DNA of 30,085 nucleotides from a virus: positions 1-30,085 of IMG/VR virus record IMGVR_UViG_3300031775_000025. The stretch is one strand, 5' to 3'. Shown here one piece after another: positions 3,782-27,670 of the stretch; position 1 is the first letter of the stretch, and every line of letters starts with the position of its first letter. Both the position numbers and the translations under genes were made by a program. A model generated the notes under the pieces. That model was not told where the DNA came from and did no database searches. It saw nothing but the letters and a program-made list of their open reading frames with translations.

Positions 3782-3796
3782 CTCTAATAGGGGACA
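3782..3796 (-). promoter_or_regulatory. Candidate T7-class promoter, copy 1
   Basis: Read on the minus strand this is TGTCCCCTATTAGAG, identical to the plus-strand copy at 8809-8823 and one base different from the minus-strand copy at 6870-6884. All copies point in the direction of the genes that follow. The CTATTAGAG part resembles the initiation region of T7/SP6 promoters (CTATAGGGAG, CTATAGAAG). It overlaps the end of thyX and lies 23 bp before the next late gene start (3759). Promoter function is inferred. Confidence 0.5.
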
Positions 3797-6869: not shown

Positions 6870-6884
6870 CTCTACTAGGGGACA
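6870..6884 (-). promoter_or_regulatory. Candidate T7-class late promoter, copy 2
   Basis: On the minus strand this reads TGTCCCCTAGTAGAG, one base from the copies at 3782-3796 and 8809-8823. It lies 35 bp before the first late gene (start 6835) and points into the late operon. It is the natural candidate for the main late promoter read by the T7-like RNA polymerase encoded at 21435-23798. Function inferred from repetition, orientation and position. Confidence 0.55.
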
Positions 6885-6965: not shown

Positions 6966-6998
6966 AATTTCACATAAAGTGAAATTACTAATAATATT
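6966..6998 (+). promoter_or_regulatory. Hairpin element H0 (stem 8, loop ATAAA, then CTAATAATATT)
   Basis: Stem AATTTCAC (6966-6973), loop ATAAA, stem GTGAAATT (6979-6986), one base, then CTAATAATATT (6988-6998). It is the first of eight elements with this geometry and precedes the first early gene (7067) in the divergent control region. Between it and the gene, CTCTTC/GAAGAG and GTCC/GGAC can pair to give a structured leader. It ends no gene, so a terminator is not needed here; a hairpin promoter of the N4 type fits better. Confidence 0.6.
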
Positions 6999-7066
6999 CA
7001 CTTCTCTTCATCCGCGTCCCGACAGAAAGGACCGGAAGGAAGAGTCCAACTAAAAAGGAGATTGTT

Positions 7067-7495
7067 ATGGAAATTTGTGAATCTGCAATGGTTAATGATA
7101 TCACATACGTGGTAAAGTTAACTGGTCTGTTGAACGAACAGGCTCATGGTGACAACGATGGTAGTTACTTGGGCGATGGCTGTGCTTGGAGGTTTAAACA
7201 CAGTCGGGAGTTCGTGGTCAAGGACTGTAAGACGGCTCAGGATGCGGTGGCGTTTGTAATCGCGCTTGGGTTGGAGAATAGCATTGTCTTGAAGGAGTGG
7301 CCATACAAGGTCATGGCTTGGGACCAATGGTATTCGGATCTCGTTCATCAGGAACAAGAGCTGGTGGTGGACGGTTACGATGACGCTAAAGGTAAGACGG
7401 AGTATCAGGCTGGTAAGGCCAGGTACGTCTCGCCTAAGGACGTCAGGGCTTCTAAGGCTGAGATGGCAGCTAAGGAAGCTAAGTATGGTCTCTGA
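7067..7495 (+). CDS. Hypothetical early protein (142 aa)
   Basis: ATG at 7067 follows AAGGAGATTGTT. The product is soluble and mixed-charge (MEICESAMVNDITYVVKLTG at the start), with a Lys/Ala-rich helical C-terminus (DVRASKAEMAAKEAKYGL). No family recognised. It is the first early gene on the plus strand, behind hairpin H0, so it is likely made soon after infection and may act on host functions. Its base composition is clearly richer in G and C than that of genes downstream of 9.9 kb. Confidence 0.75.
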   Translation: MEICESAMVNDITYVVKLTGLLNEQAHGDNDGSYLGDGCAWRFKHSREFVVKDCKTAQDAVAFVIALGLENSIVLKEWPYKVMAWDQWYSDLVHQEQELVVDGYDDAKGKTEYQAGKARYVSPKDVRASKAEMAAKEAKYGL

Positions 7496-7508
7496 GGAAG
7501 GGATCGGT

Positions 7509-7539
7509 AGGAGTGGCTGGGAAACTGGCCATTCCTTTT
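7509..7539 (+). terminator. Probable intrinsic terminator
   Basis: AGGAGTGGC (7509-7517) pairs with GCCATTCCT (7528-7536), nine pairs including one G-T, closed by a 10-nt loop and followed by a short T run (7536-7539). It lies between the first early gene and the next small gene. The T run is short, so termination may be partial. Confidence 0.5.
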
Positions 7540-7566
7540 ATCAATCATTTAAAATAGGAGGTAATG

Positions 7567-7698
7567 ATGGAAGGATTTGTAAGTTGGATGTATAGCCCGG
7601 AGGTGTACGGTGCGGTAATGGTAAGCGGTGGAATGGGAGCAGGGTTCCTGGTGGTAGTCGCGTATTGTTACTGGTTGTCTGGTGGGTTTAAGTTATAG
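7567..7698 (+). CDS. Membrane mini-protein (43 aa)
   Basis: ATG at 7567 is spaced correctly from AGGAGG; another ATG directly before it is too close. The product MEGFVSWMYSPEVYGAVMVS is followed by a Gly/Val-rich span (GMGAGFLVVVAYCYWLSG) and ends FKL. One membrane segment is likely. It sits between a terminator-like hairpin and hairpin element H1. Function unknown; early membrane peptides in phages often alter the host envelope, which is only a possibility here. Confidence 0.65.
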   Translation: MEGFVSWMYSPEVYGAVMVSGGMGAGFLVVVAYCYWLSGGFKL

Positions 7699-7703
7699 GA
7701 AGG

Positions 7704-7735
7704 AAAGGCACATAAAGTGCCTTTTCTAATAATAT
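7704..7735 (+). promoter_or_regulatory. Hairpin element H1
   Basis: Stem AAAGGCAC (7704-7711), loop ATAAA, stem GTGCCTTT (7717-7724), T, then CTAATAATAT (7726-7735). Same geometry as H0. The stem differs from H0 at several positions, yet all eight pairs are kept. The T-rich right arm could also terminate transcription from upstream. Confidence 0.6.
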
Positions 7736-7738
7736 GTT

Positions 7739-7823
7739 CTTCTACGGTAGGTGTAGAAGGCATTATAACCTAGTCGTCGTCTTGGTGTCGACTGACTAGG
7801 CGTCTCTGTGGCAATTCGGCCAC
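7739..7823 (+). promoter_or_regulatory. Structured leader with three successive hairpins
   Basis: Between H1 and the gene at 7844 three hairpins follow each other: CTTCTAC/GTAGAAG (7739-7745 with 7753-7759); CCTAGTC plus GTCG pairing with CGAC and GACTAGG (7769-7800, one bulged T); and GTGGC/GCCAC (7808-7812 with 7819-7823). No reading frame explains this stretch. The RBS (GGAGGT) lies just downstream. A regulatory leader or a small stable RNA is possible. Confidence 0.5.
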
Positions 7824-7843
7824 CAACACTTAGGAGGTGTGAT

Positions 7844-8203
7844 ATGGAGACATGTTGGATGGAGGGGATGATTGCCTCTCAGGCTATTCGCGAACTGATG
7901 TTCGAGGATGGTAAGTTGCGCTCTGAAGCTGGCGTGTACAAGGCTGTACTGGATCGTTATGGTCCTCAGTCAGACCCTGATTCTATCAGGAAGTACGTCA
8001 GGAGGAAGTATGCCAATTGGATTGGTTACTTTCAGACGATGGAGGCCAATTCAAGAGATCCCAGCTGGTCGCTGATGGCTGGTAACGTTTGGGGTCCGGA
8101 GGAGTTTAAGAAGCTCTGTCCTGATTGGCAAGGAGTGTTGGAGTTGCTCGATAGGTGGTATTGTGGCGACGAGGACGATGATGACTGGGACGATAGGTCT
8201 TAG
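7844..8203 (+). CDS. Hypothetical early protein (119 aa), acidic C-terminus
   Basis: ATG at 7844 follows TAGGAGGTGTGAT. The product begins METCWMEGMIASQAIRELMF. Its middle part, SIRKYVRRKYANWIGYFQTM, is basic and helical and could bind nucleic acid, and it ends in a strongly acidic tail (CGDEDDDDWDDRS). Acidic tails of this kind occur in DNA mimics and polymerase-binding phage proteins, but no family is recognised. It is bracketed by hairpin elements H1 (with its long leader) and H2. Confidence 0.7.
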   Translation: METCWMEGMIASQAIRELMFEDGKLRSEAGVYKAVLDRYGPQSDPDSIRKYVRRKYANWIGYFQTMEANSRDPSWSLMAGNVWGPEEFKKLCPDWQGVLELLDRWYCGDEDDDDWDDRS

Positions 8204-8218
8204 TGATCCGCTAATAGG

Positions 8219-8251
8219 GAAGGCACATTAAGTGCCTTCTCTAATAATATT
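8219..8251 (+). promoter_or_regulatory. Hairpin element H2
   Basis: Stem GAAGGCAC (8219-8226), loop ATTAA (the only loop variant), stem GTGCCTTC (8232-8239), T, then CTAATAATATT (8241-8251). It lies 15 nt after the stop of the upstream gene and 18 nt before the start of the next. Confidence 0.6.
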
Positions 8252-8269
8252 CTAATCAAGGAGGATTAA

Positions 8270-8464
8270 ATCAAAAGGATATTTAGAATTAGCTACACAC
8301 TAGTGGAAGAGGATGACACCTTAACCACGGTGGAAAGGCAATTCGAAGACGAGAAGGAGTACGATAAACTGTGCTCCGAAGTCTGGCGAATGCCTAACCT
8401 GGGAGATGTCTATATGGCATCGATCCCGGTAGATCACCCATCGGCTAAAGAGCCGTTTGGATGA
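8270..8464 (+). CDS. Hypothetical protein (64 aa) with apparent ATC start codon
   Basis: The frame from 8270 to a TGA at 8464 is preceded by a perfect RBS (AAGGAGG, 5-nt gap), but the codon at the start position is ATC. An in-frame TAA stands immediately upstream, and the first GTG is 11 codons in, without an RBS. The product reads KRIFRISYTLVEEDDTLTTV then an acidic helical part and ends EPFG; it looks like a normal small protein. It lies between hairpins H2 and H3 like its neighbours. Either ATC initiates, or an ATG was lost by mutation or sequencing error. Confidence 0.55.
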   Translation: MKRIFRISYTLVEEDDTLTTVERQFEDEKEYDKLCSEVWRMPNLGDVYMASIPVDHPSAKEPFG

Positions 8465-8477
8465 TACTTATCCGGGG

Positions 8478-8510
8478 GAGGGCACATAAAGTGCCCTCTC
8501 TAATAATATT
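8478..8510 (+). promoter_or_regulatory. Hairpin element H3
   Basis: Stem GAGGGCAC (8478-8485), loop ATAAA, stem GTGCCCTC (8491-8498), T, then CTAATAATATT (8500-8510). It differs from H2 by a paired substitution in the stem (A-T to G-C), a compensatory change. Confidence 0.6.
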
Positions 8511-8538
8511 TTAATCTCTCAAAAATAGGAGGATCATT

Positions 8539-8670
8539 ATGACCCATGAAGAGATATTTGACTACGCACTTTCAGTGTATAACATAGCCTTAGGTGTTGA
8601 TGAAGTGATCAACATTGTCTCTAATGATCTGAGTGTAGATCATTATTGTAGACATAGGTCTATGTGTTAA
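8539..8670 (+). CDS. Hypothetical mini-protein (43 aa)
   Basis: ATG at 8539 follows TAGGAGGATCATT. The product (MTHEEIFDYALSVYNIALGV at the start, ending HRSMC) looks like a short helical, mostly acidic protein with a His/Cys/Arg-rich end. It lies between H3 and the terminator at 8685. Function unknown. Confidence 0.6.
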   Translation: MTHEEIFDYALSVYNIALGVDEVINIVSNDLSVDHYCRHRSMC

Positions 8671-8684
8671 AGATTGTACGAAGG

Positions 8685-8711
8685 GAGGGCCCATAAAGGG
8701 CCCTCTTTTTT
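8685..8711 (+). terminator. Intrinsic terminator built on hairpin element H4
   Basis: Stem GAGGGCCC (8685-8692), loop ATAAA, stem GGGCCCTC (8698-8705), directly followed by six T (8706-8711). Loop and stem length match the other H elements, but the CTAATAATATT tail is replaced by the T run, so this copy looks like a true rho-independent terminator closing the 7.07-8.67 kb early gene group. Confidence 0.75.
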
Positions 8712-8720
8712 ACAAAAGAA

Positions 8721-8785
8721 CCGGACTTATACCGACCGACTAATCATTTGGGTGTATAACCGTCTGCGTGGCCTGTAGAATCCGG
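8721..8785 (+). other. Non-coding stretch with nested stems
   Basis: The 328 nt from 8671 to 8998 hold no gene. In its first half CCGGA (8721-8725) can pair with TCCGG (8781-8785), enclosing TTATAC (8727-8732) paired with GTATAA (8754-8759). It begins right after the H4 terminator and precedes a promoter-like motif. It may be the end of a small RNA or chance pairing; the stems are short. Confidence 0.3.
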
Positions 8786-8808
8786 AAGTTTTCAGTGAAA
8801 AATCCCAC

Positions 8809-8823
8809 TGTCCCCTATTAGAG
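8809..8823 (+). promoter_or_regulatory. Candidate T7-class promoter, copy 3 (plus strand)
   Basis: TGTCCCCTATTAGAG, identical to the minus-strand copy at 3782-3796. It lies in the gene-free stretch after the H4 terminator and points toward the SSB/replication genes. It is the only copy on the plus strand in this window and could drive middle genes by the phage T7-like RNA polymerase. Confidence 0.5.
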
Positions 8824-8892
8824 GAAGGGGTTGCGGGGCCCTGTATACCTCTATATATACTAAGAGTATGCCAATTGGATGATTTTCATGGT

Positions 8893-8922
8893 AGTCAGGT
8901 GTCTCTCAAAGGCCACCTGGCT
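8893..8922 (+). promoter_or_regulatory. 9-bp leader hairpin
   Basis: AGTCAGGTG (8893-8901) pairs with CACCTGGCT (8914-8922) through nine pairs including one G-T, with a 12-nt loop. It is downstream of the promoter-like motif at 8809 and upstream of hairpin H5, thus in the leader of any transcript from that promoter. Role unknown. Confidence 0.4.
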
Positions 8923-8948
8923 AAAGGGTACAGTATGGCCACATGAGG

Positions 8949-8981
8949 AGCGAGAGATAAACTCTCGCTGCTAATAATATT
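8949..8981 (+). promoter_or_regulatory. Hairpin element H5
   Basis: Stem AGCGAGAG (8949-8956), loop ATAAA, stem CTCTCGCT (8962-8969), G, then CTAATAATATT (8971-8981). The stem sequence is almost wholly different from H0-H4, yet loop, spacer length and downstream box are the same. It precedes the gene at 8999. Confidence 0.65.
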
Positions 8982-8998
8982 AATTTGAAAGGTATACT

Positions 8999-9154
8999 AT
9001 GTTATCATTTCTCGACACTGTATTGCTATGTGTGGATATCATTAATGGTATCTTGTTAGCATGTTTGTTAGTAATTATTATATTCTTTATTCCTATCTTT
9101 TGGGAAGATGTTGTGTTCTTTATGCAACATTTAATGCGTCCTAGTGGCGCGTGA
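8999..9154 (+). CDS. Membrane mini-protein (51 aa)
   Basis: ATG at 8999 after GAAAGGTATACT. The product is very hydrophobic (MLSFLDTVLLCVDIINGILL, then LLVIIIFFIPIFW), probably one long or two short membrane spans, with a polar end (MQHLMRPSGA). Its TGA stop lies inside hairpin element H6, so translation of this gene would disturb that hairpin. Function unknown. Confidence 0.6.
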   Translation: MLSFLDTVLLCVDIINGILLACLLVIIIFFIPIFWEDVVFFMQHLMRPSGA

Positions 9155-9178
9155 TAAACACGCGCTGCTAATAATATA
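9146..9178 (+). promoter_or_regulatory. Hairpin element H6
   Basis: Stem GGCGCGTG (9146-9153) with CACGCGCT (9159-9166; outer pair G-T), loop ATAAA, G, then CTAATAATATA (9168-9178). It lies 33 nt before the SSB gene and overlaps the stop codon of the gene before it. Confidence 0.65.
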
Positions 9179-9210
9179 TTATCTTTTAACCAACTATAAA
9201 GGAGTTTCTC

Positions 9211-9705
9211 GTGAGTACATATCCTCGTTCTATAATCTTAAAAGATCTTACAGCTAAGTTTTGTCGTATCTCAGGTACTGACGCACCCGTTAACCCATTC
9301 GGTTCTAAGCAATGGGAAATGGTGATTCAGACTTCTGATGCTGACAAAGTTCAAGAGCTTAAAGATCTAGGTCTCAACGTCAAGCAAGATAAAGAAGACG
9401 AAAAGACCTTCAACGTTAACCTGAAGCGCAAAGGTATTAAAGCCGACGGCAACCCTAACGCACCAGTGAAAATCGTAGACTCTAAGTTACAGCCTTTAGA
9501 GGGCAATAACATTGGTAACGGATCCAAAGTTAATGTCAACTTGTGGCAGTATGAGTACGAAGCACCTGGTCGCAAAGGTGTAGCCACTTCGCTTACTGCA
9601 GTGCAAGTCGTAGAGCTCGTAGAGTATACGCCAACTGCTGGATTTGAAGTCGTCGGTGAAGCACCTGCTGAAGCAAAAGCTGAAGAACAAGAGTTGCCAT
9701 TCTAA
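9211..9705 (+). CDS. Single-stranded DNA-binding protein, T7 gp2.5-like
   Basis: 164 residues from a GTG start at 9211 (RBS AAGGAG). The body has an OB-fold-like pattern of short strands (KVNVNLWQYEYEAPGRKGVA, VQVVELVEYTP) and a DFNV-type core (KTFNVNLKRKGIKADGNPNA). The C-terminus is an acidic tail ending EEQELPF, the typical hydrophobic-ended tail through which T7 gp2.5 contacts DNA polymerase and primase-helicase. Those partners are encoded at 15669 and 19065. Its stop overlaps the next start (TAATG). Confidence rests on size, tail and context. Confidence 0.8.
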   Translation: MSTYPRSIILKDLTAKFCRISGTDAPVNPFGSKQWEMVIQTSDADKVQELKDLGLNVKQDKEDEKTFNVNLKRKGIKADGNPNAPVKIVDSKLQPLEGNNIGNGSKVNVNLWQYEYEAPGRKGVATSLTAVQVVELVEYTPTAGFEVVGEAPAEAKAEEQELPF

Positions 9706-9776
9706 TGTCTGTCTCGTTCTTTATAGTCCTTGGGGTCGTAATAATCGGCCTCATTGTGCTTCAAGAAAGACACTAA
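9705..9776 (+). CDS. Tiny membrane peptide (23 aa), coupled to SSB
   Basis: Starts at the ATG of TAATG overlapping the SSB stop, ends in a second TAATG. The product is one membrane span (FFIVLGVVIIGLIVLQ) with the charged end ERH. Absence of its own RBS and exact stop-start overlaps imply translation by re-initiation after SSB. No family recognised. Confidence 0.5.
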   Translation: MSVSFFIVLGVVIIGLIVLQERH

Positions 9777-9841
9777 TGTTTACCATAACAATCCTCCTGC
9801 TCTTGGTCCTTGTGGTGCTTGTTGGCGTACGTTTGTACTAG
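9776..9841 (+). CDS. Tiny membrane peptide (21 aa)
   Basis: Second link of the TAATG chain after SSB. Product MFTITILLLLVLVVLVGVRL plus Tyr: almost pure Leu/Val/Ile. Its base composition (many CTC, CTT, GTG, CTG) differs from AT-rich neighbours. Together with the 23-residue peptide it may form a two-part membrane unit; function unknown. Confidence 0.45.
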   Translation: MFTITILLLLVLVVLVGVRLY

Positions 9842-9921
9842 TCAACGAGTGTCAGAAGGACCGGGAGTTTAAAAAAGAAACACCGTCATTAACCGTATTA
9901 TTGTGCTAATAGGAGTTTACT

Positions 9922-10128
9922 ATGATTCATGCAATAATTCTAATATGCTCTCTCAATTCTGATTGTTATTATATTTCAGATAATTGGGGACCTTATAATA
10001 CAATAGATAATTGTCTTTATCGTACTATTACGATGCATAAAGACGCAACCAATTTATTACCAAAGTACAAATCTATTTCTTCCCATTGTACTACAAGTAA
10101 ATTCATGACAAAAGGAGATAACGCATGA
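9922..10128 (+). CDS. Hypothetical protein (68 aa), possible exported
   Basis: ATG at 9922 after TAGGAGTTTACT. A short hydrophobic start (MIHAIILICSL) followed by a Cys-containing polar part (NSDCYYISDNWGPYNTIDNC and SSHCTT) suggests a secreted or membrane-anchored protein with disulfides. It opens a tightly packed operon: its stop overlaps the next start (ATGA). The 80-nt gap before it contains a motif (CAGAAGGACCGGGAG) also found in near-identical form at 7023. Confidence 0.6.
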   Translation: MIHAIILICSLNSDCYYISDNWGPYNTIDNCLYRTITMHKDATNLLPKYKSISSHCTTSKFMTKGDNA

Positions 10129-10574
10129 ATCGTAATTTAGTATATTTCCCAGCTGTCAGAATAGCCATGAAGAAAACTACTGACGAACTCGATCGTCTCA
10201 TGGAAGAAGCCAGTAAAGACAATAATGCAGCAGCTTTAGAAGCCTATCAAACCGCTTTTGCGCTGCTCAGAGAAGGTATCTTAAGAGTAGAAAACCAAGG
10301 CCATTCTAAATTTCATGTAGAAGTAGATGAAGCCTTAGAAGAAATCTTAAAGAGAGGAAGATCCAAGTATATTACTATGCATGCAAATAAAATGATGAGA
10401 CTTTGTAAAGACGCATTTGATGAAACTTGTATTAAACTTGCAACTGAAATAATAGAAATGCTTAAAGAAAAAGGGGTTTCTAAAGAAACTTTAAATGATA
10501 ACTATGTTGATATATATGAAGCAGCTTGTTATCAAGTTAAAGAAGTTTATAACGCAAAAGGAATAGATGTATGA
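10125..10574 (+). CDS. Hypothetical helical protein (149 aa)
   Basis: ATG at 10125 overlaps the previous stop; its own stop overlaps the next start (10571). The product is largely helical and charged (TTDELDRLMEEASKDNNAAA, EVDEALEEILKRGRS, LATEIIEMLKEKG). No domain recognised. Being in the middle of the early operon next to DUF3310, it may be a regulatory or nucleotide-metabolism accessory protein, but nothing proves it. Confidence 0.7.
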   Translation: MNRNLVYFPAVRIAMKKTTDELDRLMEEASKDNNAAALEAYQTAFALLREGILRVENQGHSKFHVEVDEALEEILKRGRSKYITMHANKMMRLCKDAFDETCIKLATEIIEMLKEKGVSKETLNDNYVDIYEAACYQVKEVYNAKGIDV

Positions 10575-10855
10575 AAATAGGTGATAAATTAGCAAAAGAC
10601 TTTATGACCATAGACGAGTTGCTTGTCAACAGTCCACCTCATTACAAGCAAGGAGACGTTGAGTGTATTGAGGCAATTAAGTCTGCCTGTGGTGCAGAGT
10701 ATCAAGGCTACCTACAAGGTAACATCATGAAATACATCTGGCGTTACCGTGCAAAAGGTCAATCAATAAATGATCTTAAGAAAGCTCAATGGTATCTGAA
10801 AGAACTTATCGTTGATGAACAAAACCGTTTAACGTTTGAAGAGGAAACTCCATGA
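10571..10855 (+). CDS. DUF3310 protein
   Basis: 94 residues. The segment HYKQGDVECIEAIKSACG, then YLQGNIMKYIWRYRAKG and DLKKAQWYLKELI, is the characteristic DUF3310 pattern (HY..G..ECI, G N..KYI.R...K....DL.KA..YL..L) found across phages, often near DNA metabolism genes. Its molecular role is not established to my knowledge. Start and stop overlap the neighbours by 4 nt each, so it is part of the translationally coupled early operon. Confidence 0.88.
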   Translation: MKIGDKLAKDFMTIDELLVNSPPHYKQGDVECIEAIKSACGAEYQGYLQGNIMKYIWRYRAKGQSINDLKKAQWYLKELIVDEQNRLTFEEETP

Positions 10856-11076
10856 CTGAAGAAGATTTTAATTTAATAAAAAAAGATGCCTCAGATAAAA
10901 CTTCAAAAGTCCCTTATAAATCAATGACTTATCCTGTTGATGAATGGGGAAGACTAGGCGGACTATTTAGTTTAGCTGATGTACCTATAGCAAAATACGT
11001 ACGATATCAAGATTTAAGTGAAAATGATCAAAAGAAAATAGATCGTCAATATGAAGCAGGAGCCTTAAATGCCTAG
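10852..11076 (+). CDS. Hypothetical protein (74 aa)
   Basis: ATG overlaps the DUF3310 stop (ATGA). Soluble, charged (MTEEDFNLIKKDASDKTSKV; later LSENDQKKIDRQYEAGALNA). No domain recognised. Overlaps the next gene by 8 nt. Confidence 0.6.
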   Translation: MTEEDFNLIKKDASDKTSKVPYKSMTYPVDEWGRLGGLFSLADVPIAKYVRYQDLSENDQKKIDRQYEAGALNA

Positions 11077-11263
11077 AAATCTTACAAAAAGTTATAAGAA
11101 AGAGTGTTTTGAGTTTCTTGACGAACTTCGAGCAAGTGGCGAATGTAATATGTTCGGAGCCTGTAGTTATCTAGTAGATGATTTTAATTTAGAAAAGAAA
11201 GATGCCGTTTCGTGTTTACAGGAATGGATGAACAACAAAAGAGAAGAGGAACTTGTAGAATGA
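11069..11263 (+). CDS. Small conserved-type phage protein (64 aa)
   Basis: The pattern ELRASGECNMFGACSYLVDD followed by FNLEKKDAVSCLQEWM resembles a small helical protein that I have seen in many phages (NMFGA..YL...F.L....A...L..WM), whose function is unknown to me. ATG at 11069 overlaps the previous gene by 8 nt; the stop overlaps the next start (ATGA). Confidence 0.7.
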   Translation: MPRNLTKSYKKECFEFLDELRASGECNMFGACSYLVDDFNLEKKDAVSCLQEWMNNKREEELVE

Positions 11264-11562
11264 AAAAATCAGATACAGCATTAGCACGATGGACCAAAGA
11301 AAGATCACCTTTCAGCGGTTATAAGTTTACTGTGACTAACAGAGAAGACCCAGCTTTATTAAGATTAAAAGAAGTTGTTAAGAAATCTAATAAAGAATAC
11401 GCATGGGGTCATAAATTAAGAGTTTCGTTAATGGGTAGAGGTCCAAGAACTAGATGGGCTAGAATAGAAGGTAAACACCCAAGAGCTTATGATTCTTATT
11501 TACCTTTAGATAAAGCTACGCATTATGATGTATATGTAAACGAAGCACCTAAATATGCTTGA
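11260..11562 (+). CDS. Hypothetical basic protein (100 aa)
   Basis: The ATG at 11260 (MKKSDTALARW) overlaps the previous stop and is preferred to an upstream in-frame ATG that lies inside the previous gene. The product is basic (KLRVSLMGRGPRTRWARIEG) and may bind nucleic acid. No family recognised. Its last codons overlap the tiny gene at 11555. Confidence 0.65.
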   Translation: MKKSDTALARWTKERSPFSGYKFTVTNREDPALLRLKEVVKKSNKEYAWGHKLRVSLMGRGPRTRWARIEGKHPRAYDSYLPLDKATHYDVYVNEAPKYA

Positions 11563-11647
11563 GACAATACTAATAAGCTTTGCAGGTGGCGCAGCCATAA
11601 TGTATATCATTTGGTACGTTGCCGATAAAATCAGTAAGTTACCTTAA
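11555..11647 (+). CDS. Membrane mini-protein (30 aa)
   Basis: ATG at 11555 within the end of the previous gene. The product MLETILISFAGGAAIMYIIW then YVADKISKLP has one membrane span and a basic end. It is the last gene of the run before the structured gap at 11648-11833. Confidence 0.5.
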   Translation: MLETILISFAGGAAIMYIIWYVADKISKLP

Positions 11648-11693
11648 CAAATAGAATACTCGCCCAGTACAACGCCTTCATAGCGCGATAGTG

Positions 11694-11811
11694 AGATAAA
11701 TGGTAAGACATTTTAGGGTTTATCTGATGTGGCGATCAGACGAGTTTATATAGCCTCAGATGAGGTAAGTAATTTGATAAAGGAGTTACTTGCAAGAGTA
11801 GTCTGAGGCTA
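11694..11811 (+). ncRNA. Structured non-coding region, candidate regulatory RNA
   Basis: Three helices follow one another in this gene-free gap: AGATAAA/TTTATCT (11694-11700 with 11719-11725), TCTGAT/ATCAGA (11723-11728 with 11735-11740, overlapping the first by 3 nt, so the two may alternate), and a long arm TAGCCTCAGA/TCTGAGGCTA (11751-11760 with 11802-11811) enclosing AAGTAA/TTACTT (11767-11772 with 11786-11791). The inner loop holds AAAGGAG, a ribosome-binding-like sequence with no start codon after it. The next gene starts at 11834. It could be a leader switch, a processed small RNA or a protein-binding site. No known RNA family is recognised. Confidence 0.55.
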
Positions 11812-11833
11812 ACTTTACTTAATGGAGAATGAT

Positions 11834-12079
11834 ATGAGTGTAGATAACACAACAACCCAAGAAGACGATAAATTTGTATATGTAAAACCTGACGGAGGAG
11901 AGATCTGGTGCTATGGTAGCATTGTCTTTGATAGTAATTTCGAAGTATGCTGTGATGATGAGGAATTCGATGGAGTAGTAGTAGATTGTGAGGGTGATAA
12001 GTACAATACATGGGATAAAGTATGTAAGTATCTAATGGAAAATTACCGATCTGATTTGGAGCAAATATCAACATGTTAA
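11834..12079 (+). CDS. Hypothetical acidic protein (81 aa)
   Basis: ATG at 11834 is preferred because GGAG stands 6 nt before it; the earlier in-frame ATG at 11822 has no RBS. The product is acidic and Cys-containing (EVCCDDEEFDGVVVDCEGD). It follows the structured region 11694-11811, so its expression may be controlled there. No domain recognised. Overlaps the next gene by 7 nt. Confidence 0.6.
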   Translation: MSVDNTTTQEDDKFVYVKPDGGEIWCYGSIVFDSNFEVCCDDEEFDGVVVDCEGDKYNTWDKVCKYLMENYRSDLEQISTC

Positions 12080-12297
12080 GTCCAATAGAACCCATACATA
12101 CTCGTATTCAAGAAGTTGTTAGTAATCTATATGACGAAGAACATGATCCTTTTGCGATAGCGGGCGTAATGCTCGCTATTGCTATTCAATTATATCGTAC
12201 TCAAGAAATGAAATGGGATGGTATTAAAAAGTTATTAGATGAAATTCATAAGACTAGTATTAAATCAGAAGAACACATTAGGAGGACAATGCATTGA
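12073..12297 (+). CDS. Hypothetical helical protein (74 aa)
   Basis: ATG at 12073 (GGAG 11 nt upstream, a long gap). Helical with a hydrophobic middle (PFAIAGVMLAIAIQLYRTQE). Ends overlapping the TTG start of the DUF1599 gene. Function unknown. Confidence 0.6.
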   Translation: MLSPIEPIHTRIQEVVSNLYDEEHDPFAIAGVMLAIAIQLYRTQEMKWDGIKKLLDEIHKTSIKSEEHIRRTMH

Positions 12298-12629
12298 ATA
12301 AAGAAAGTTATTTACCAGATGCAATACAGATACTTGATCAATGTAAAACCTTAATGGAAAAGAAAGGTAAGGATTATCAAGGAGGATCTGTTTGTGATGA
12401 AGATTATTATCCTCATGGATGGAAATCGTTTGACACTATGTTAACAACTAAGGTGCTTAGGTTTAGATCTGTAATGGAACAAAAAGGCGATGTTAACTTC
12501 GACACAGCGGAAGATTGCCTTATAGACCTCATTAATTACTCTGCTAGAGCTATTGTATACATAAACCGACATAACCGACATAGCACAAAAGGGCCTGATG
12601 AATCAGACTTGCCGTATAATGGCGCATAA
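12294..12629 (+). CDS. DUF1599 (nucleotide modification associated domain 1) protein
   Basis: 111 residues from a TTG start at 12294 (AGGAGG eight nt upstream; stop of the previous gene overlaps). The pattern KKGKDYQGGS, HGWKSFDTMLTTKVLRFRSV and DTAEDCLIDLINYSARAIVY matches DUF1599, an all-helical family that comparative work has linked to modified-nucleotide pathways in phages (Nmad1). Its presence 170 nt before a dCMP hydroxymethylase gene strengthens that link here. The reaction is not known. Confidence 0.8.
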   Translation: MNKESYLPDAIQILDQCKTLMEKKGKDYQGGSVCDEDYYPHGWKSFDTMLTTKVLRFRSVMEQKGDVNFDTAEDCLIDLINYSARAIVYINRHNRHSTKGPDESDLPYNGA

Positions 12630-12819
12630 ATGGGTAGTAATGTTTGAACCCTTCGATGACGAAGGCTTTGAATACGTAAGAATAGGTAAAGTCTGGGATA
12701 TGAATACACCTATTAAAGTGTTTACTAACAGAGATGAAGCCGAAAAAGAAAAACGTAGATGGAATACCGGCGTTGTAACTGAATGGAGAAATGAAGATGT
12801 TAACTACGAGGAACATTAG
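12619..12819 (+). CDS. Hypothetical protein (66 aa)
   Basis: The product MAHKWVVMFEPFDDEGFEYV with VFTNRDEAEKEKRRWNT looks like a compact alpha/beta protein. The start at 12619 overlaps the previous gene by 11 nt; an alternative ATG lies at 12598. Neither has a strong RBS, so the start is uncertain. It overlaps the hydroxymethylase start by 23 nt. Function unknown. Confidence 0.6.
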   Translation: MAHKWVVMFEPFDDEGFEYVRIGKVWDMNTPIKVFTNRDEAEKEKRRWNTGVVTEWRNEDVNYEEH

Positions 12820-13525
12820 AGACAGATTTATTGATAAATTTAAAGATCAAGACTTTGAAGAAGATGGTAACATAGAAGTACTAGGCGCAAGTTTTATAGC
12901 TGATGAAGAAAGTATCTTTGGAACACCTAATGCAAAGTATCAGCAAGCTGAAGTTATTTGGTATAACAGCCAAAGTTGTAACACCGACAAGCTGAGAGAT
13001 ATTTATGGTAAAGTACCAGCCATTTGGGAACATGTTGCTAATACTAGAGGTAGTGTTAACTCGAATTACGGTCACTTAATCTTTTCAGCTCTAAACGGTA
13101 GCCAATATGAGAATGCTCATAGAGAATTAAAGAGAAACCCTGATTCTCGTAGAGCAACTATGATATATCAACACCCAGACATGCATCAGAGACACAGAGA
13201 GCATGGTAAGGATGACTTTGTGTGCACAAATGCTGTAACATACTATAATAAGTTAGGCATACTTCACGCTGTAGTACAGATGCGCTCGAATGATGTTGTA
13301 TTTGGGTACATTAATGACTATTATTGGCAATTTAAAGTATTAGAGCGGTTAGCTGGTGACTTAGAACTAGAAGTCGGAGGAATTTTATGGCAAGCTCAGA
13401 GTTTACATATGTATCCTCGTCATTTTAAGTTAATCGAAGACTATTTACATATTGAAGGGCTTCGTATAGAAAAGGCAAAGCCTGTAGACTATGCGGTAGA
13501 AGATATAGGAGCTCATAATGAATAA
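12797..13525 (+). CDS. Deoxycytidylate (dCMP) hydroxymethylase, T4 gp42-like
   Basis: 242 residues from the ATG at 12797 (GGAG 8 nt upstream; another ATG at 12791 is too close); T4 gp42 has 246. It transfers a one-carbon unit from methylene-tetrahydrofolate to dCMP, giving 5-hydroxymethyl-dCMP. As far as I remember gp42, long stretches match: IEVLGASFIADEESIFG, RGSVNSNYG, NPDSRRATMIY, DDFVCTNAVTYY and MRSNDVVFGYINDYYW. Cys143 corresponds to catalytic Cys148, and Asp174 to Asp179, which selects cytosine over uracil; thymidylate synthases have Asn there. So it is the hydroxymethylase, not ThyA. A thymidylate synthase (ThyX) is encoded separately. Confidence 0.92.
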   Translation: MLTTRNIRDRFIDKFKDQDFEEDGNIEVLGASFIADEESIFGTPNAKYQQAEVIWYNSQSCNTDKLRDIYGKVPAIWEHVANTRGSVNSNYGHLIFSALNGSQYENAHRELKRNPDSRRATMIYQHPDMHQRHREHGKDDFVCTNAVTYYNKLGILHAVVQMRSNDVVFGYINDYYWQFKVLERLAGDLELEVGGILWQAQSLHMYPRHFKLIEDYLHIEGLRIEKAKPVDYAVEDIGAHNE

Positions 13526-13589
13526 TCAACAAAATATGTTACTTACTTTAGGCTTAATAATAGCCTTAACATTAGCATTTGTACTATGA
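13518..13589 (+). CDS. Tiny membrane peptide (23 aa)
   Basis: ATG at 13518 overlaps the end of the hydroxymethylase gene by 8 nt; its TGA overlaps the next ATG (ATGA). Product MNNQQNMLLTLGLIIALTLA then FVL: polar start, one span. Likely translated by coupling; function unknown. Confidence 0.5.
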   Translation: MNNQQNMLLTLGLIIALTLAFVL

Positions 13590-13828
13590 AGATAACGCCT
13601 AAGTACGACAAATCATGGTACATTAAGTGGGTGTCGAGCTGTATACTACTAGTAGCTATGTCGCTTACTTCTATCGGTGGACTAGAACCATTTAATATAA
13701 TGCTTCACCTAATAGGAGTAACCGGCTGGCTAATAGTAGGAATGTTATGGCATGACCGAGCCTTAATATTTATTAATGGAATAGCAATCTTTATATTTCT
13801 ATCAGGAATTTTAAAGTTTTATTTATAG
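13586..13828 (+). CDS. Membrane protein (80 aa), three spans
   Basis: Begins MKITPKYDKSWYIKWVSSCI and has three hydrophobic stretches (CILLVAMSLTSIGG, IMLHLIGVTGWLIVGMLW, ALIFINGIAIFIFLSGIL). The motif KSWYIKWVSS ... GW.IVGMLWHDRAL recalls a small membrane family (perhaps DUF6552) seen in marine phages and bacteria; this assignment is from memory and tentative. Start coupled to the tiny peptide before it. Confidence 0.65.
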   Translation: MKITPKYDKSWYIKWVSSCILLVAMSLTSIGGLEPFNIMLHLIGVTGWLIVGMLWHDRALIFINGIAIFIFLSGILKFYL

Positions 13829-13836
13829 GAGATACA

Positions 13837-14052
13837 ATGCCTCATCACTTTCCAATTTGGATGAACACGAATAAAAAAGATATGGGATTTACCGACATGG
13901 CTGACATTGATTTGAATGTTGGTTTCAGTCGACATAACTCTCATCATATAGGTAACATAAGAGTTACGCAAGAAGTAATTGATAAAAACACTAGAAGATT
14001 TAGACTATACGTAGACGATAAACTAATGTCAACTAAACATATAGAAAGGTAG
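13837..14052 (+). CDS. Hypothetical protein (71 aa)
   Basis: ATG at 13837 after TAGGAGATACA. The product MPHHFPIWMNTNKKDMGFTD is His-rich in its middle (GFSRHNSHHIGNIRV) and ends basic. No domain recognised. Lies 3 nt before the methyltransferase gene. Confidence 0.6.
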   Translation: MPHHFPIWMNTNKKDMGFTDMADIDLNVGFSRHNSHHIGNIRVTQEVIDKNTRRFRLYVDDKLMSTKHIER

Positions 14053-14055
14053 AAC

Positions 14056-14904
14056 ATGGCAAACGCTAGAGGAAAAGAAATAGATAATACGCATTTAAGT
14101 ATAGATCAAGCAGAAGCTAGAGGTTTTATACATAGAGACTATATAGCTCACTGCTTACGATGGACTAAGATAGCTAAAGATCTAAACCTTGGTGGTAAGT
14201 ATAAAGAAGCCGACATAATAGATGTAGGTTGTGGTAAAGATATGCCGTTAGCTAGAATGCTAATGACAAATCGTATGGCACCAAGAAGATATTTAGGTGT
14301 TGAGTATAATAAGATGGAACTACCATCTATGTTTGATAATACAACCTTCAAACCTGAGTTAATGCAAGATGTAAACTTTGTAACAACCGACATTATGGAA
14401 GATAGCTTTAACGTTAGTGTTTGTCTTGAAGTGCTTGAGCACGTTGAACCATCAATGGCTATTATGATACTTGATCAAATAAGTAATGTCGTAGTACAAG
14501 ATGGTATATGTTACTTCTCAACACCGTGCTTTGATGAGAAAGTGGGAGCAGCTAAGAACCACGTAAATGAAATGACTTACCGAGCATTTGGTGCTTTATT
14601 AGAAGCAAGAGGCTTTCAAATACTAGATCATTATGGTACGTTTGCTTCACAAAAAGATTACAAACACCACCTTGATGGTGATATGAACTCTATATTCTCA
14701 AAGCTTAGTGAGTATTACGATACAAACTATCTTGCAACTATATTTGCACCGTTATATCCTAGTAAATCAAGAAACGTACTATGGAAATGTGCTAACCGAC
14801 AAAACAATGACTTCAATAGAAGGTTTACCGTAATTAACGAGATAGGTGGTAGGTTAGGATCTTCTGAAAAGGCAGGAGAATTACGTTTTGCCGCAGGATA
14901 CTGA
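14056..14904 (+). CDS. Class I SAM-dependent methyltransferase
   Basis: 282 residues. SAM-binding motif I is IIDVGCGKD (residues 54-62); a later acidic strand VTTDIMEDSFNVSVCLEVLE and HVEP give motif post-II and motif IV-like segments. The overall pattern (DVGCG, CLEVLEHV, CYFSTPC) is that of small-molecule or sugar methyltransferases rather than DNA methylases: there is no DPPY or PCQ motif. The substrate is unknown. Its place between the hydroxymethylase and the MazG-like gene makes a modified base, nucleotide or host metabolite possible, by context only. Confidence 0.8.
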   Translation: MANARGKEIDNTHLSIDQAEARGFIHRDYIAHCLRWTKIAKDLNLGGKYKEADIIDVGCGKDMPLARMLMTNRMAPRRYLGVEYNKMELPSMFDNTTFKPELMQDVNFVTTDIMEDSFNVSVCLEVLEHVEPSMAIMILDQISNVVVQDGICYFSTPCFDEKVGAAKNHVNEMTYRAFGALLEARGFQILDHYGTFASQKDYKHHLDGDMNSIFSKLSEYYDTNYLATIFAPLYPSKSRNVLWKCANRQNNDFNRRFTVINEIGGRLGSSEKAGELRFAAGY

Positions 14905-14956
14905 GCCCGAAAGATATTATGAATGGATGTTATGGAAATTAAAACAGGAGAAAGAT

Positions 14957-15424
14957 ATGAATGCTAAATGGTCTGAAATAGATAGTGATACTAACTGGGC
15001 TAAAGATATTAATAATATGCACCTCAAGTTTGGGGTGCATGACTGGGTTAAGACTAGAATAAAAGAAAAAGACTTCTATTCTTTGCACGAGTTCTTACAG
15101 TTTAGAATGAGATTTCTAGATGAAGAGCTACACGAAACCAAAGAAGCAATAAAACACCGACATGCAGACGATATTGTTGATGGCTTAATAGACCTATGTG
15201 TTGTTGCTATTGGCACGTTAGATATGATGGGTGTAGATGCTAATAGATCATGGAACCGAGTCCACCGTGCTAATATGGCTAAACATATAGGCCAAAAGGA
15301 TTCCAGACCTAATGATCTTGGGCTGCCTGATTTAGTAAAGCCTGATGATTGGATGGCACCTGATCATACAGATAACATCGGAATTACAGAAAAGTTTTTG
15401 AGAAAAGACTATGAACCGAAGTAA
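14957..15424 (+). CDS. MazG-like nucleotide pyrophosphohydrolase
   Basis: 155 residues from the ATG at 14957, which has AGGAG six nt upstream; the frame continues upstream to a TTG at 14888. The all-alpha NTP-pyrophosphatase signature is visible: EELHE at residues 56-60 and DDIVDGLIDL at 71-80, whose acidic residues bind Mg. Such enzymes cleave (d)NTPs to monophosphates. Next to a dCMP hydroxymethylase it could supply dCMP from dCTP and keep unmodified dCTP out of DNA, the role that gp56 plays in T4. Substrate choice is inference. A short inverted repeat at 15017-15040 lies inside the gene. Confidence 0.78.
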   Translation: MNAKWSEIDSDTNWAKDINNMHLKFGVHDWVKTRIKEKDFYSLHEFLQFRMRFLDEELHETKEAIKHRHADDIVDGLIDLCVVAIGTLDMMGVDANRSWNRVHRANMAKHIGQKDSRPNDLGLPDLVKPDDWMAPDHTDNIGITEKFLRKDYEPK

Positions 15425-15608
15425 ATTAATGAATCATGTCAGTCACTTAGATGAAGAAGTTAAGGAACTTAGTAGTCGAAGAGAAGTCTTATTGAAAGAG
15501 AAAAATCTTGCAGCAATTTTTATTTATGATACCTCTATTAAGTTATTAGAGAGTAGAATAACAGAATGTAAAGCTGAGTTAGATAAAGACCGACATGAGG
15601 AAGAGTGA
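15411..15608 (+). CDS. Coiled-coil mini-protein (65 aa)
   Basis: ATG at 15411 overlaps the MazG-like gene by 14 nt. Mostly heptad-like and charged (HLDEEVKELSSRREVLLKEK ... SRITECKAELDKD), so a short coiled coil is likely. Last gene before hairpin H7 and the DNA polymerase. Function unknown. Confidence 0.65.
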   Translation: MNRSKLMNHVSHLDEEVKELSSRREVLLKEKNLAAIFIYDTSIKLLESRITECKAELDKDRHEEE

Positions 15609-15620
15609 GAGTTTATTAAA

Positions 15621-15653
15621 GGCGCGGGATAAACCCGCGCCGCTAAAAATATA
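15621..15653 (+). promoter_or_regulatory. Hairpin element H7
   Basis: Stem GGCGCGGG (15621-15628), loop ATAAA, stem CCCGCGCC (15634-15641), G, then CTAAAAATATA (15643-15653). Same geometry as H0-H6, 6.5 kb away from them, and directly before the DNA polymerase gene. A GC-only stem in an AT-rich surrounding shows that the stem, not its sequence, is kept. Confidence 0.65.
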
Positions 15654-21105: not shown

Positions 21106-21544
21106 GGAAAACACTAATGAAGTAGTGAGGTACCCTGAAGATATGTATTGTGTTTACTTCCATAAAGATCCTGATAGTGATAACGTAATATATGTAGGTA
21201 AAGGTACCTTACACAGAGCATACCAAATAACTAATCGTAGTTACGATCACCATGTTTGGTTGTTAGATAAACTAGGTAATCATACGATTCAAGATATAGT
21301 AGTAATCAAAGGCGGTCAGATGACCGACAAAGAAGCTACTGTAGTAGAATCTCATGAAATTAAATGTTGCTTAAGGCGTGGGTCTGACTTATTTAATGTC
21401 ACACATAACCCGTTCCGCAAAACTAGGAGAGAGAATGCAGAATGTAATAGAGTATTTAGAACAGAAAATTATCAGTACACCTCAGAGGTGGGCAGTAAGG
21501 CTGGTGAACGAACACAAGTTAGAACCAAAGAGAGTCGTGTATGA
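21086..21544 (+). CDS. GIY-YIG domain protein (possible endonuclease)
   Basis: Start at TTG 21086 (GGAG six nt upstream) overlaps the deaminase end; other starts are possible. About 152 residues. The GIY-YIG elements are MYCVYFHKDPDSDNVIYVGK, then the Arg in HRAYQ and the Glu in VESHEIKC, which carry the catalytic Arg and metal-binding Glu. Such domains occur in homing and free-standing nucleases, or as degenerate phage domains. The last about 36 residues are read from DNA that also codes for the start of the RNA polymerase. Lying between two core genes, it may be a mobile, homing-type insertion. Confidence 0.7.
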   Translation: MRNIEIRENTNEVVRYPEDMYCVYFHKDPDSDNVIYVGKGTLHRAYQITNRSYDHHVWLLDKLGNHTIQDIVVIKGGQMTDKEATVVESHEIKCCLRRGSDLFNVTHNPFRKTRRENAECNRVFRTENYQYTSEVGSKAGERTQVRTKESRV

Positions 21545-23798
21545 TGCATTAACTATATTACAATACCATTTTAGAAAGACTTCAACATCTGAATCAGCAA
21601 CATGTAAACTTACAGCAGCTTCAGTAGCTATTGGTAAGAACGTGTTGCTTCAGAAAGGAGTTGAGTTAGGATTTAGAGCCGATGTAACAGTCGGCGACCT
21701 AATTCTTGAAGCATTCTATGAATGTAAGTATATTAAAATAGTTAGAGCTCCTACTGAAGCTCAAATAAAGTGGGAAGCAAACCCAGTAGGTAAGAAACCT
21801 TTTAGTCGTGCTCCATATATGATTGAGACTTCTGAAAAATGGTTAAACATTGGGTCGCTTCCTGACCAAGTAGTTAACGAGCTTATACAAAACACTTCAT
21901 TCAAGAAGATTAAGCGTATAAGTAGACTGTTTCAAGACAATGGATACCCGGTCATTAAGCATTGGGGATATGATAGAGACGAAGATTTCAAGCTACTACT
22001 TGAAGAACCTTTCGTTGACGCTATCAATAAGCTACAACGTACAGCTTGGACCATTGATGCTGATATATTAGAGGCTGTACAGAAAAACAAACGGAAGTTT
22101 GTTAGTGAAACCTTAAAAGTATCTGATAAGACAGGTAAGAATTACCGTTACTGTATCTTCGGTAATAATAAAGAGTTAGAGAGTAAAGACTTATACTGGA
22201 ATGGAGTTGTCTTCAAACCTGAGTTAGGTAATAAGTCTCTTGAGAAAAAGTATTATGGTGAACTTAGACGATTGACTAATAAGTTACGTAATAAACCTAA
22301 CAAGAAGCCGTTACATACTATGCAAGGTAAATATGATGAAGCGGCTACTCATTGGAATGCTAAGTTAGTATTACTTAAAAACCGTAGTAAGTTTGATGCG
22401 TATAATATGACTATCCAAAAGGCTGAAGCCTTGAAGGATAAAATCTTCTTTCAATATATCGATGCAGATTATAGGGGGAGATTGTATTATCGTGAATCAT
22501 ATCTAAACTATCAAGGTAAAGATATGGAACGGGGGTTATTAAAGTTTGCTCAAGCAAAACCAATAACCGAGGAAGGGTTATATTACTTTGCTGTACATAC
22601 AGCGTGTAGTTATAACCAATCGTATTCAATCGATAATATACCAGAGTGGTGTGAAGCCGATTATAAATCAGCGTTAGAAGATGAAGGTCTTACGGATATC
22701 TCTGTAGATAAGATGACCATTGATGACCGAGTTAAATGGGTCGTCAACAACGAAGACTTCATCAGAAATACGTGGGTTAATCGAACTATCCATGAGAAAG
22801 CTGAGAAACCTGTAGGTTTTCTTGCCTGTTGTAAGGCGTGGTGTAAGTTATGGGATCAAGAGTCTGAAGATGGTGTACACTACATCGATCTTCCTGTTCC
22901 TATTGATGGTTCTAATAATGGTTGGCAGCATTTAGCTGCTATATCTAAGGACGAAAAGGCTGGAGAGTTAGTCGGCTTGGTTAAAACCGATATACCGAAA
23001 GACTTTTACGTGCAAACAGCTAAAGCTTTGATATCCCGTGTGCCTGACTGGTTCGCGCAGAGAGCCATGCCTATGAAACACATAAGGAAAGGTATATCGA
23101 AGCGCGGAGCGATGACTAGAGCGTACTCTGCTGGCCACCTAGCCATAGCTTTGAACATGTATGCTGACTGTTATGCCGAAGGATTCCATAGTAAGTACGA
23201 TATTACTATGTCTGACTGTAATGATTTAGCTTATCAACTAATAAAAGCTATTGATGAGGTCTGTCCGGGTCCGTTAGAGACTATGAGCTACCTTCAAGCA
23301 ATAGCAAACCATATTATTGCTGAGCTAAAGGAACCAGTAGTCGATTGGATAACTCCATCTGGCTTTCCAGTACGATACGAAAACTACGTAATGGAAGACG
23401 TCAAGTGGAAGAGTTGGATCTCTGATATGAGGATCCAGCACGTAGGTAAGGAACACCGGTTGGTATACGGTAAAAAGATACCTAGTCCAGGTGGCTTTGC
23501 CTCAGGTATTAGTCCAAACTTTATTCATAGTATGGACGCAGCTCATATGGCTCTGATTATCCATCACTGGGACGGAGACTTTGCTGCAATTCATGACTCA
23601 TTTTCTACTCACGCTTGTGATGTAGCTAGCTTATTAGGTTTAACTAAGGAAGTGTTCATTAAAATGTACGATCATGATGATTTCTATAAGCACATAGCTG
23701 ATATGCTATTGTTTGAACCTGATAACTTTAATTACAATTACAAATTAGGAGATCTAAATATAGAAGGAATAGCTGATAGTGACTATTTCTTCTCATAG
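21435..23798 (+). CDS. T7-like single-subunit RNA polymerase
   Basis: 787 residues from ATG 21435 (RBS AGGAGAGAGA); the frame extends upstream without a better start. Motif A DGSNNGWQHLAAISKDE with Asp491; motif B KRGAMTRAYSAG with Tyr564; ISPNFIHSMDAAH; motif C AIHDSFSTH with Asp721. These match T7 Asp537, Lys631/Tyr639 and His811/Asp812. It would transcribe phage genes from its own promoters; TGTCCCCTATTAGAG (three copies) is the best candidate. In T7 the polymerase gene is early and near one end; here it is the second-last gene of the early block. Confidence 0.96.
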   Translation: MQNVIEYLEQKIISTPQRWAVRLVNEHKLEPKRVVYDALTILQYHFRKTSTSESATCKLTAASVAIGKNVLLQKGVELGFRADVTVGDLILEAFYECKYIKIVRAPTEAQIKWEANPVGKKPFSRAPYMIETSEKWLNIGSLPDQVVNELIQNTSFKKIKRISRLFQDNGYPVIKHWGYDRDEDFKLLLEEPFVDAINKLQRTAWTIDADILEAVQKNKRKFVSETLKVSDKTGKNYRYCIFGNNKELESKDLYWNGVVFKPELGNKSLEKKYYGELRRLTNKLRNKPNKKPLHTMQGKYDEAATHWNAKLVLLKNRSKFDAYNMTIQKAEALKDKIFFQYIDADYRGRLYYRESYLNYQGKDMERGLLKFAQAKPITEEGLYYFAVHTACSYNQSYSIDNIPEWCEADYKSALEDEGLTDISVDKMTIDDRVKWVVNNEDFIRNTWVNRTIHEKAEKPVGFLACCKAWCKLWDQESEDGVHYIDLPVPIDGSNNGWQHLAAISKDEKAGELVGLVKTDIPKDFYVQTAKALISRVPDWFAQRAMPMKHIRKGISKRGAMTRAYSAGHLAIALNMYADCYAEGFHSKYDITMSDCNDLAYQLIKAIDEVCPGPLETMSYLQAIANHIIAELKEPVVDWITPSGFPVRYENYVMEDVKWKSWISDMRIQHVGKEHRLVYGKKIPSPGGFASGISPNFIHSMDAAHMALIIHHWDGDFAAIHDSFSTHACDVASLLGLTKEVFIKMYDHDDFYKHIADMLLFEPDNFNYNYKLGDLNIEGIADSDYFFS

Positions 23799-23988: not shown

Positions 23989-23996
23989 TTACATAT
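23977..23996. terminator. Convergent gene junction with weak inverted repeat
   Basis: The stop codons of the early (23986-23988) and late (23989-23991) strands abut with no spacer. ATATGT (23977-23982) and ACATAT (23991-23996) could form a 6-bp AT-rich hairpin in either direction. There is no GC-rich stem and no T run, so a strong terminator is not visible and read-through in both directions is possible. Confidence 0.3.
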
Positions 23997-27669: not shown

Positions 27670-27670
27670 A

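Follow-up and report, generated by a model that had tools for sequence, protein, structure and literature searches.

Constant-loop hairpins as candidate early promoters of an N4-type virion RNA polymerase in an uncultured marine phage

The DNA analyzed here, positions 1 to 30,085 of IMG/VR record IMGVR_UViG_3300031775_000025 (the window, at its full length), is a partial record of 30 kb from an uncultured marine phage and has no close annotated kin. It harbors eight short hairpins on the plus (early) strand, referred to below as H0 or by their first position, together with two large genes at its distal end: one for a T7-like single-subunit RNA polymerase (RNAP) on the same strand, and one for vP2, a putative N4-type virion RNA polymerase (vRNAP) in the late-strand module, next to a separate open reading frame (ORF) for the virion protein vP3. 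The features are collected in Table 1. We examine here whether the hairpins are early promoters and, if so, which polymerase they would serve.

A first-pass annotation, made from the letters of this DNA, had described eight plus-strand elements with an 8-bp stem, a loop ATAAA or ATTAA, a 1-nt spacer and a downstream box, and our analysis located all eight with that pattern at the same coordinates. When at least seven of eight Watson-Crick pairs and one of the two loops were required, the window contained eight such hairpins on the plus strand and, in agreement with the annotation, none on the minus strand; in 200 dinucleotide shuffles of the window the mean count was 0.03 and the highest was 1. 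The claim that pairing is kept despite stem change was also borne out, as 64 of 64 stem cells are paired across the eight hairpins, all eight pair positions vary on both arms, and the covariation score was reached in 0 of 500 shuffles. The outermost pair of hairpin 9146 is G-T, and folding energies of the elements as single-stranded DNA range from -6 to -12.7 kcal/mol. Seven of the eight hairpins are followed by the box CTAATAATATT or a close variant (CTAAAAATAT at 15621), whereas 8685 has TTTTTT in its place. The exact box CTAATAATAT occurs six times in the window, every copy 1 nt 3' of one hairpin. The hairpins lie approximately 30 to 140 nt 5' of start codons, and most come after a stop codon; H0 opens the early strand and, as the annotation had noted, has no gene upstream. 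A scan of IMG/VR for loop plus box gave at least 120 single matches, which we rejected as further family members and attribute to chance, since no full hairpin (none with more than 6 of 8 stem pairs) was present among the matches listed.

The annotation had counted 8685 as a member of the promoter family, and this assignment had to be corrected. Judged from its sequence and from synteny, 8685 is an intrinsic terminator and not a promoter, because it carries a T run and no box and because the corresponding site in three relatives (L149, L156 and L152) is occupied by ordinary terminators whose loops differ, including GGAGGCTC-TCAAGG-GAGCCTTC-TTTTTT and ATAACCCC-TAAC-GGGGTTAT-TTTTTT. This raises the possibility that the whole family consists of transcription terminators or attenuators between early genes, a reading favored by the position of most hairpins after stop codons and by a simple scan that marks 8478 as terminator-like. 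However, seven of the eight hairpins have no T run, H0 follows no gene, and the true terminators of the relatives have unrelated loops, so that this explanation is extremely improbable. The same applies to promoters of the host sigma-70 type, with TAATAAT as the -10 box. CTAATAATAT does resemble a -10 element, and H0 and 9146 overlap weak 9-of-12 matches, but sigma-70-like sites in the window are at shuffle level (28 found versus 29.3 expected), the -35 region would correspond to the freely varying stem, and the box itself changes in relatives (TTTTAAAACATAATAT, ACCTTAATATA) while the hairpin persists; the chance of this reading being correct is minute. Both readings were rejected for the boxed hairpins, on the grounds of shuffle-level matches and missing T runs.

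The first-pass annotation had also proposed an N4-like polymerase as the identity of the large virion protein, and profile, motif and fold comparisons of vP2 support this. vP2 matches PHROG 2206 ("virion RNA polymerase") at motif A with an E value of 1.5e-4, as do the vP2 proteins of three of five relatives (best E value, 5.2e-6), and hhalign of the vP2 profile with eight N4-type vRNAPs gave an E value of 3.2e-5 and a probability of 73%. In its extended form this alignment comprises 930 collinear columns with the regions of R424 and of motifs A, B and C in register, the aligned patterns being RM.....NPQ...R (R424 region), E-DG-T-GP (A), K-P-T..YG (B) and IP....G.DG..M ... D (C). The corresponding sites of vP2 are the R531 region, D706 in motif A (EFDGKTHGP), K808 and Y816-G817 in motif B (KKPPMTLAYG) and D1016 in motif C (PIMDAVKTD); the motifs around N4 residues R424, D559, K670/Y678 and D951 are thus kept, and they show little or no variation among 16 relatives. 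An AlphaFold model of vP2 (predicted local distance difference test score, 77.5) was searched against PDB, and the top five matches were all N4 vRNAP (best E value, 4.6e-13); against viral models, vRNAPs of N4-like phages came out on top. Searches of vP2 with phmmer and hmmsearch against PDB sequences gave nothing useful, and tblastn against annotated phages gave no match. On the basis of the profile match, the collinear motifs and a model nearest to N4 vRNAP, we predict with good confidence that vP2 is a single-subunit RNAP whose closest counterpart is N4 vRNAP. Because its gene lies on the late strand beside the inner virion protein vP3, vP2 would be packaged in the virion.

Approximately 130 related loci were gathered with terminase, vP2 and ssb-like queries (genomes and loci are given as G and L numbers). 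The hairpin family is found again across a genus of uncultured marine relatives of roseophage CRP-7, in which gene order is that of CRP-7, with early and replication genes and the T7-like RNAP on one strand and structural genes on the other; relatives of 56 to 60 kb have the same layout as the window. The same hairpin sites are found across the genus, with lineage-specific loops. Loops ATAAA/ACAAG are found in the window, G002, G013, G045, L149, L153 and others, and G050 combines ATAAA with another box. Loops ATTC/ATCC/ATAC occur in G005, G052, L154, L157 and L158, while G047 has AGAA and AAAA and G046 has ATAA at one site. Longer, bulged hairpins are present in G055, L267 and L272, and also in L266 and L268. 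The first loop class comprised 45 distinct elements; the second gave 34 matches, some of them probably due to chance. Totals on the early versus the opposite strand, to which overlapping contigs from the same phage contribute repeatedly, were 123 versus 6 for the first class and 80 versus 7 for the second.

Which polymerase the hairpins belong to can be judged from pairs of genomes in which one enzyme has changed and the other has not. The annotation had named the presence of the elements in phages lacking the large virion protein as evidence that would speak against it; all nine genomes with both loci sequenced carry the elements together with the large protein. Two candidate polymerases are encoded in every genome. 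The T7-like RNAPs of G005 and G050 are 99% identical and their vP2 proteins 49% (44% in a rougher first alignment); at the DNA level the two genomes are 94 to 97% identical between the ssb region and the end of the T7-like RNAP gene and 64 to 75% identical at the vP2 gene. At their pol site, little differs in the flanks, outer stem or box, but AGCGCGCC-ATAAA-GGCGCGCT stands against AGCGCGAT-ATTC-ATCGCGCT, the loop and the two adjoining pairs having been exchanged on both arms. The loops at the other two comparable sites, mid and ssb, are likewise different (ATTC versus ATAAA), with the inner pair the same or one changed. G001/G002 and G052 (RNAP, 99%; vP2, 46%) have loops ACAAG/ATAAA versus ATAC/ATTC, and the window and G055 (RNAP, 93%; vP2, 45%) have ATAAA versus a long bulged hairpin. 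Conversely, the window, G001/G002 and G045, whose vP2 proteins are 66 to 75% identical, share one hairpin class, although the RNAP of the window is closer to that of G055. In partial Mantel tests on the nine genomes, promoter distance at the pol site correlated with vP2 distance when RNAP was held constant (r = 0.63, p = 0.010), and with RNAP distance at r = 0.45 (p = 0.07). Our results show that hairpin class and vP2 change together between otherwise near-identical phages while the T7-like RNAP stays. The three genome pairs, in which the class changes with vP2 at RNAP identities of 93 to 99%, support the original proposal that the hairpins are early promoters of a virion polymerase. In G050 (L289, near 3415) and G052 (L285, near 1197), DNA identity between near-identical genomes falls sharply at the 3' end of the vP2 gene, which suggests recurrent exchange of the late module at this point.

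An alternative is that the hairpins constitute all or part of the promoters used by the T7-like RNAP itself, whose gene lies downstream on the same strand and whose distance shows the weaker, borderline correlation just given. This is very unlikely, as T7-like RNAPs that are 98 to 99% identical coexist with hairpins whose loops and inner pairs differ between genomes at equivalent sites (G005/G050, G001-G002/G052). The enzyme is presumably also absent when the first early genes start, because its own gene lies late on the early strand. Moreover, a better candidate is available in TGTCYCCTAKTAGAG, which precedes the late-strand terminase in all genus members examined, in some cases with a single mismatch (TGCCTCC). 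Most members also have one copy on the early strand, and longer records have at least one additional late site. The motif is constant whatever the hairpin class and therefore fits the conserved T7-like RNAP, of which it is probably the promoter. The candidate promoter set of the annotation thus stands for the seven boxed elements, loses 8685, and is joined by this second constant motif. Variants such as GTCGGTTCCTAATAGGGA lie upstream of terminase in some more distant relatives. The T7-like RNAP matches solved structures of T7 and mitochondrial RNAPs; its likely start is inside a longer frame that opens at 21378 and is indicated by stops in the relatives. Two in-frame stops seen in this gene in relatives proved to be upstream of the true start codon.

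The hairpins might instead act as RNA, as stability elements in 5' leaders, as processing sites, or as constant-loop binding sites of a phage regulator. Located as they are before start codons, they would be transcribed by any read-through, and a single weak Rfam match was obtained (cow-rumen-4, E value of 0.084, under the gathering threshold). An RNA role of H0, however, would demand an unseen promoter upstream, an AT-rich box outside the stem, at constant spacing, has no evident function in RNA, and the switching of loops accompanies a polymerase gene; we regard this possibility as very unlikely.

Several observations weigh against assigning the hairpins to vP2. Mitochondrial and T7 RNAPs score only slightly below N4 vRNAP in the fold search, and beyond the motifs vP2 has little sequence similarity to N4 vRNAP. 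Both loci are present in just nine genomes, a small sample. G005 and G052 both have AT-N-C loops, yet their vP2 proteins are only 37% identical, and the window and G050 share ATAAA with vP2 proteins 49% identical; loop identity alone is an imperfect label, because similar loops recur with distant vP2 types. At the ssb site, L266, L268, L272 and L275 have longer bulged hairpins, and we found no hairpin family in relatives with a terminase 60 to 66% identical, even though some have vP2 homologs. With these points taken into account, we put the probability that the seven hairpin-plus-box elements are early promoters for vP2, as an N4-type virion RNAP, at roughly 0.83.

For packaging, extrusion, binding, start site and timing, we infer the following sequence of events from the N4 model (PMC4496689, PMC12633501). 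vP2 would be packaged and enter the cell together with the DNA, and the 8-bp hairpins would be extruded by the supercoiling of host gyrase. vP2 would read the loop and the adjoining pairs, with the lower stem needing only to pair, and would start in the AT-rich box just 3' of the hairpin. Early proteins would be made from these starts, followed by the T7-like RNAP encoded further along the same strand, which would then turn to TGTCYCCTAKTAGAG promoters for middle and late genes. In L267, L272, L268 and G055 (ssb or pol site), a single-base bulge approximately 7 to 9 bp above the base replaces the short loop, and this unpaired base is at about the loop height of the short forms. The polymerase may detect unpaired bases located at a constant height over the box, whether in a loop or, in some relatives, in the bulge of a longer hairpin.

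In phage N4, vRNAP utilizes hairpin promoters in which the loop is recognized and the outer stem must only pair (PMC4496689, PMC12633501), the promoter hairpin having a 3-nt loop and a 7-bp stem (PMC4496689). Members of the Schitoviridae carry three RNAP genes, for a vRNAP of about 3,500 amino acids, RNAP1 and RNAP2 (PMC7650795). Like gp50 and its promoters P1 to P3 in N4, the system described here combines a large gene in the late-strand virion module, a single-subunit RNAP fold with motifs A (E-DG-T-GP), B and C, and short inverted repeats before early genes, with a constant loop and an outer stem that can change provided it stays paired. The stem of N4 promoters is at least 5 bp long. Unlike the 5- to 7-bp stems and 3-nt loops with a central purine of N4, the hairpins here have 8-bp stems and loops of 5 nt (ATAAA/ACAAG) or 4 nt (ATNC/ARAA), and there are seven promoter candidates with a downstream AT-rich box instead of three promoters. 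vP2 has 1230 amino acids, in contrast to approximately 3500 for N4 vRNAP with its large N- and C-terminal parts around the polymerase domain, and the second polymerase is a single T7-like chain rather than the gp15/gp16 heterodimer. The system is thus N4-like in kind and differs from N4 in stem length, loop size, promoter number and polymerase size. As its genes include neither a 3500-amino-acid vRNAP nor a two-gene second RNAP, we place the phage outside the Schitoviridae. Hairpin promoters before early genes were likewise predicted from sequence in Pseudomonas phages LUZ7, LIT1 and PEV2 (PMC3715699), but these are true N4-like phages with three potential promoters, stems of 4 to 5 nt and loops of 3 nt. 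The second polymerase is a member of the T7-like phage RNAP family, and TGTCYCCTAKTAGAG resembles a short duplex promoter; unlike T7-like promoters, the hairpins do not track the T7-like RNAP when polymerases are exchanged between genomes.

The closest annotated isolate is Roseobacter phage CRP-7 (MK613349), a podovirus with a 58-kb genome that infects a marine strain of the Rhodobacteraceae (PMC6918029), with the same gene order and with terminase, portal and T7-like RNAP 58%, 57% and approximately 36% identical. It encodes a 1235-amino-acid "hypothetical protein" (gp33; L132:17862-21566, minus strand) in the place of vP2. hhalign found no link between gp33 and vP2; polymerase-like motifs are visible by eye (MEADARQSNAGL; GLYGKTAQ; VDVIQGGDSTIM...VAIHDALIT), and gp33 is probably a vRNAP-like protein in a cultured phage. 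CRP-7 has no ATAAA or ATNC hairpin family, and a search for shorter-stem loop families in distant relatives and CRP-7 found none with three or more members. Just two early hairpins with differing stems and a shared 7-nt loop, TGTAATG, were seen in it (L141:325-360 and L141:1126-1155); they could be the CRP-7 version of the same promoters.

At the H0 site, G002 has AATTATAT-ATAAA-ATATAATT; comparison of the 9146 site covered 39 relatives. Between terminator 8685 and hairpin 8949, approximately 240 nt (8705-8948) are without a long ORF, a stretch that is kept in much of the genus and holds the plus-strand putative T7-like promoter. It could be a replication origin or a noncoding RNA.

Table 1. 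Candidate promoters, terminator and genes discussed in the text (positions in the window)
Feature	Coordinates	Strand	Sequence or evidence	Context
Second putative late-strand T7-like RNAP promoter	3782..3796	-	TGTCCCCTATTAGAG	
Putative T7-like RNAP promoter	6870..6884	-	TGTCCCCTAGTAGAG	Head of late (terminase) strand
H0, candidate hairpin promoter	6966..6998	+	AATTTCAC-ATAAA-GTGAAATT, spacer A, box CTAATAATATT	Between divergent terminase operon and first early gene
Candidate hairpin promoter	7704..7736	+	AAAGGCAC-ATAAA-GTGCCTTT + CTAATAATATG	Before ORF 7808-8203 (ATG at 7844)
Candidate hairpin promoter	8219..8251	+	GAAGGCAC-ATTAA-GTGCCTTC + CTAATAATATT	
Candidate hairpin promoter	8478..8510	+	GAGGGCAC-ATAAA-GTGCCCTC + CTAATAATATT	
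Predicted intrinsic terminator, promoter-like loop	8685..8711	+	GAGGGCCC-ATAAA-GGGCCCTC-TTTTTT	T run; synteny with terminators of relatives
Putative T7-like RNAP promoter	8809..8823	+	TGTCCCCTATTAGAG	Early strand, just 3' of terminator 8685
Candidate hairpin promoter	8949..8981	+	AGCGAGAG-ATAAA-CTCTCGCT + CTAATAATATT	
Candidate hairpin promoter	9146..9178	+	GGCGCGTG-ATAAA-CACGCGCT + CTAATAATATA	Before 164-aa ORF 9211-9705
Candidate hairpin promoter	15621..15653	+	GGCGCGGG-ATAAA-CCCGCGCC + CTAAAAATATA	Before DNA polymerase 15669-17531
T7-like single-subunit RNAP; putative middle/late polymerase	21435..23798	+	phrog_414, E 5.7e-103; PF00940, E 3.7e-53	
vP2, 1230 aa, putative N4-type vRNAP	23989..27681	-	Profile, motif and fold comparisons	Late-strand module
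vP3, at least 804 aa, inner virion/ejection-type protein	27671..30085	-	phrog_6958, phrog_30152 ("virion structural protein")	Adjoins vP2; open at window end

Virion RNAPs of the N4 kind and their DNA hairpins have been described as characteristic of the N4 group (PMC7650795). We found no paper describing a hairpin/vP2 system of the present kind in the open-access literature, subscription papers and preprints being mostly beyond our reach. A broader proposal, for which we consider the odds to be even, is that this genus utilizes a streamlined virion polymerase outside the Schitoviridae with a switchable hairpin code, in which vP2 and the loop and inner pairs of all early promoters form a specificity pair that moves together when the late module is exchanged by recombination, the T7-like polymerase and its promoters remaining unchanged. 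If true, the existence of another phage lineage whose enzyme is three times smaller would indicate that the strategy is not bound to the 3500-amino-acid protein of N4. The natural swaps would provide ready matched and mismatched polymerase-promoter pairs with which hairpin recognition is directly testable, and may also be a source of small orthogonal polymerases able to initiate on single-stranded templates.

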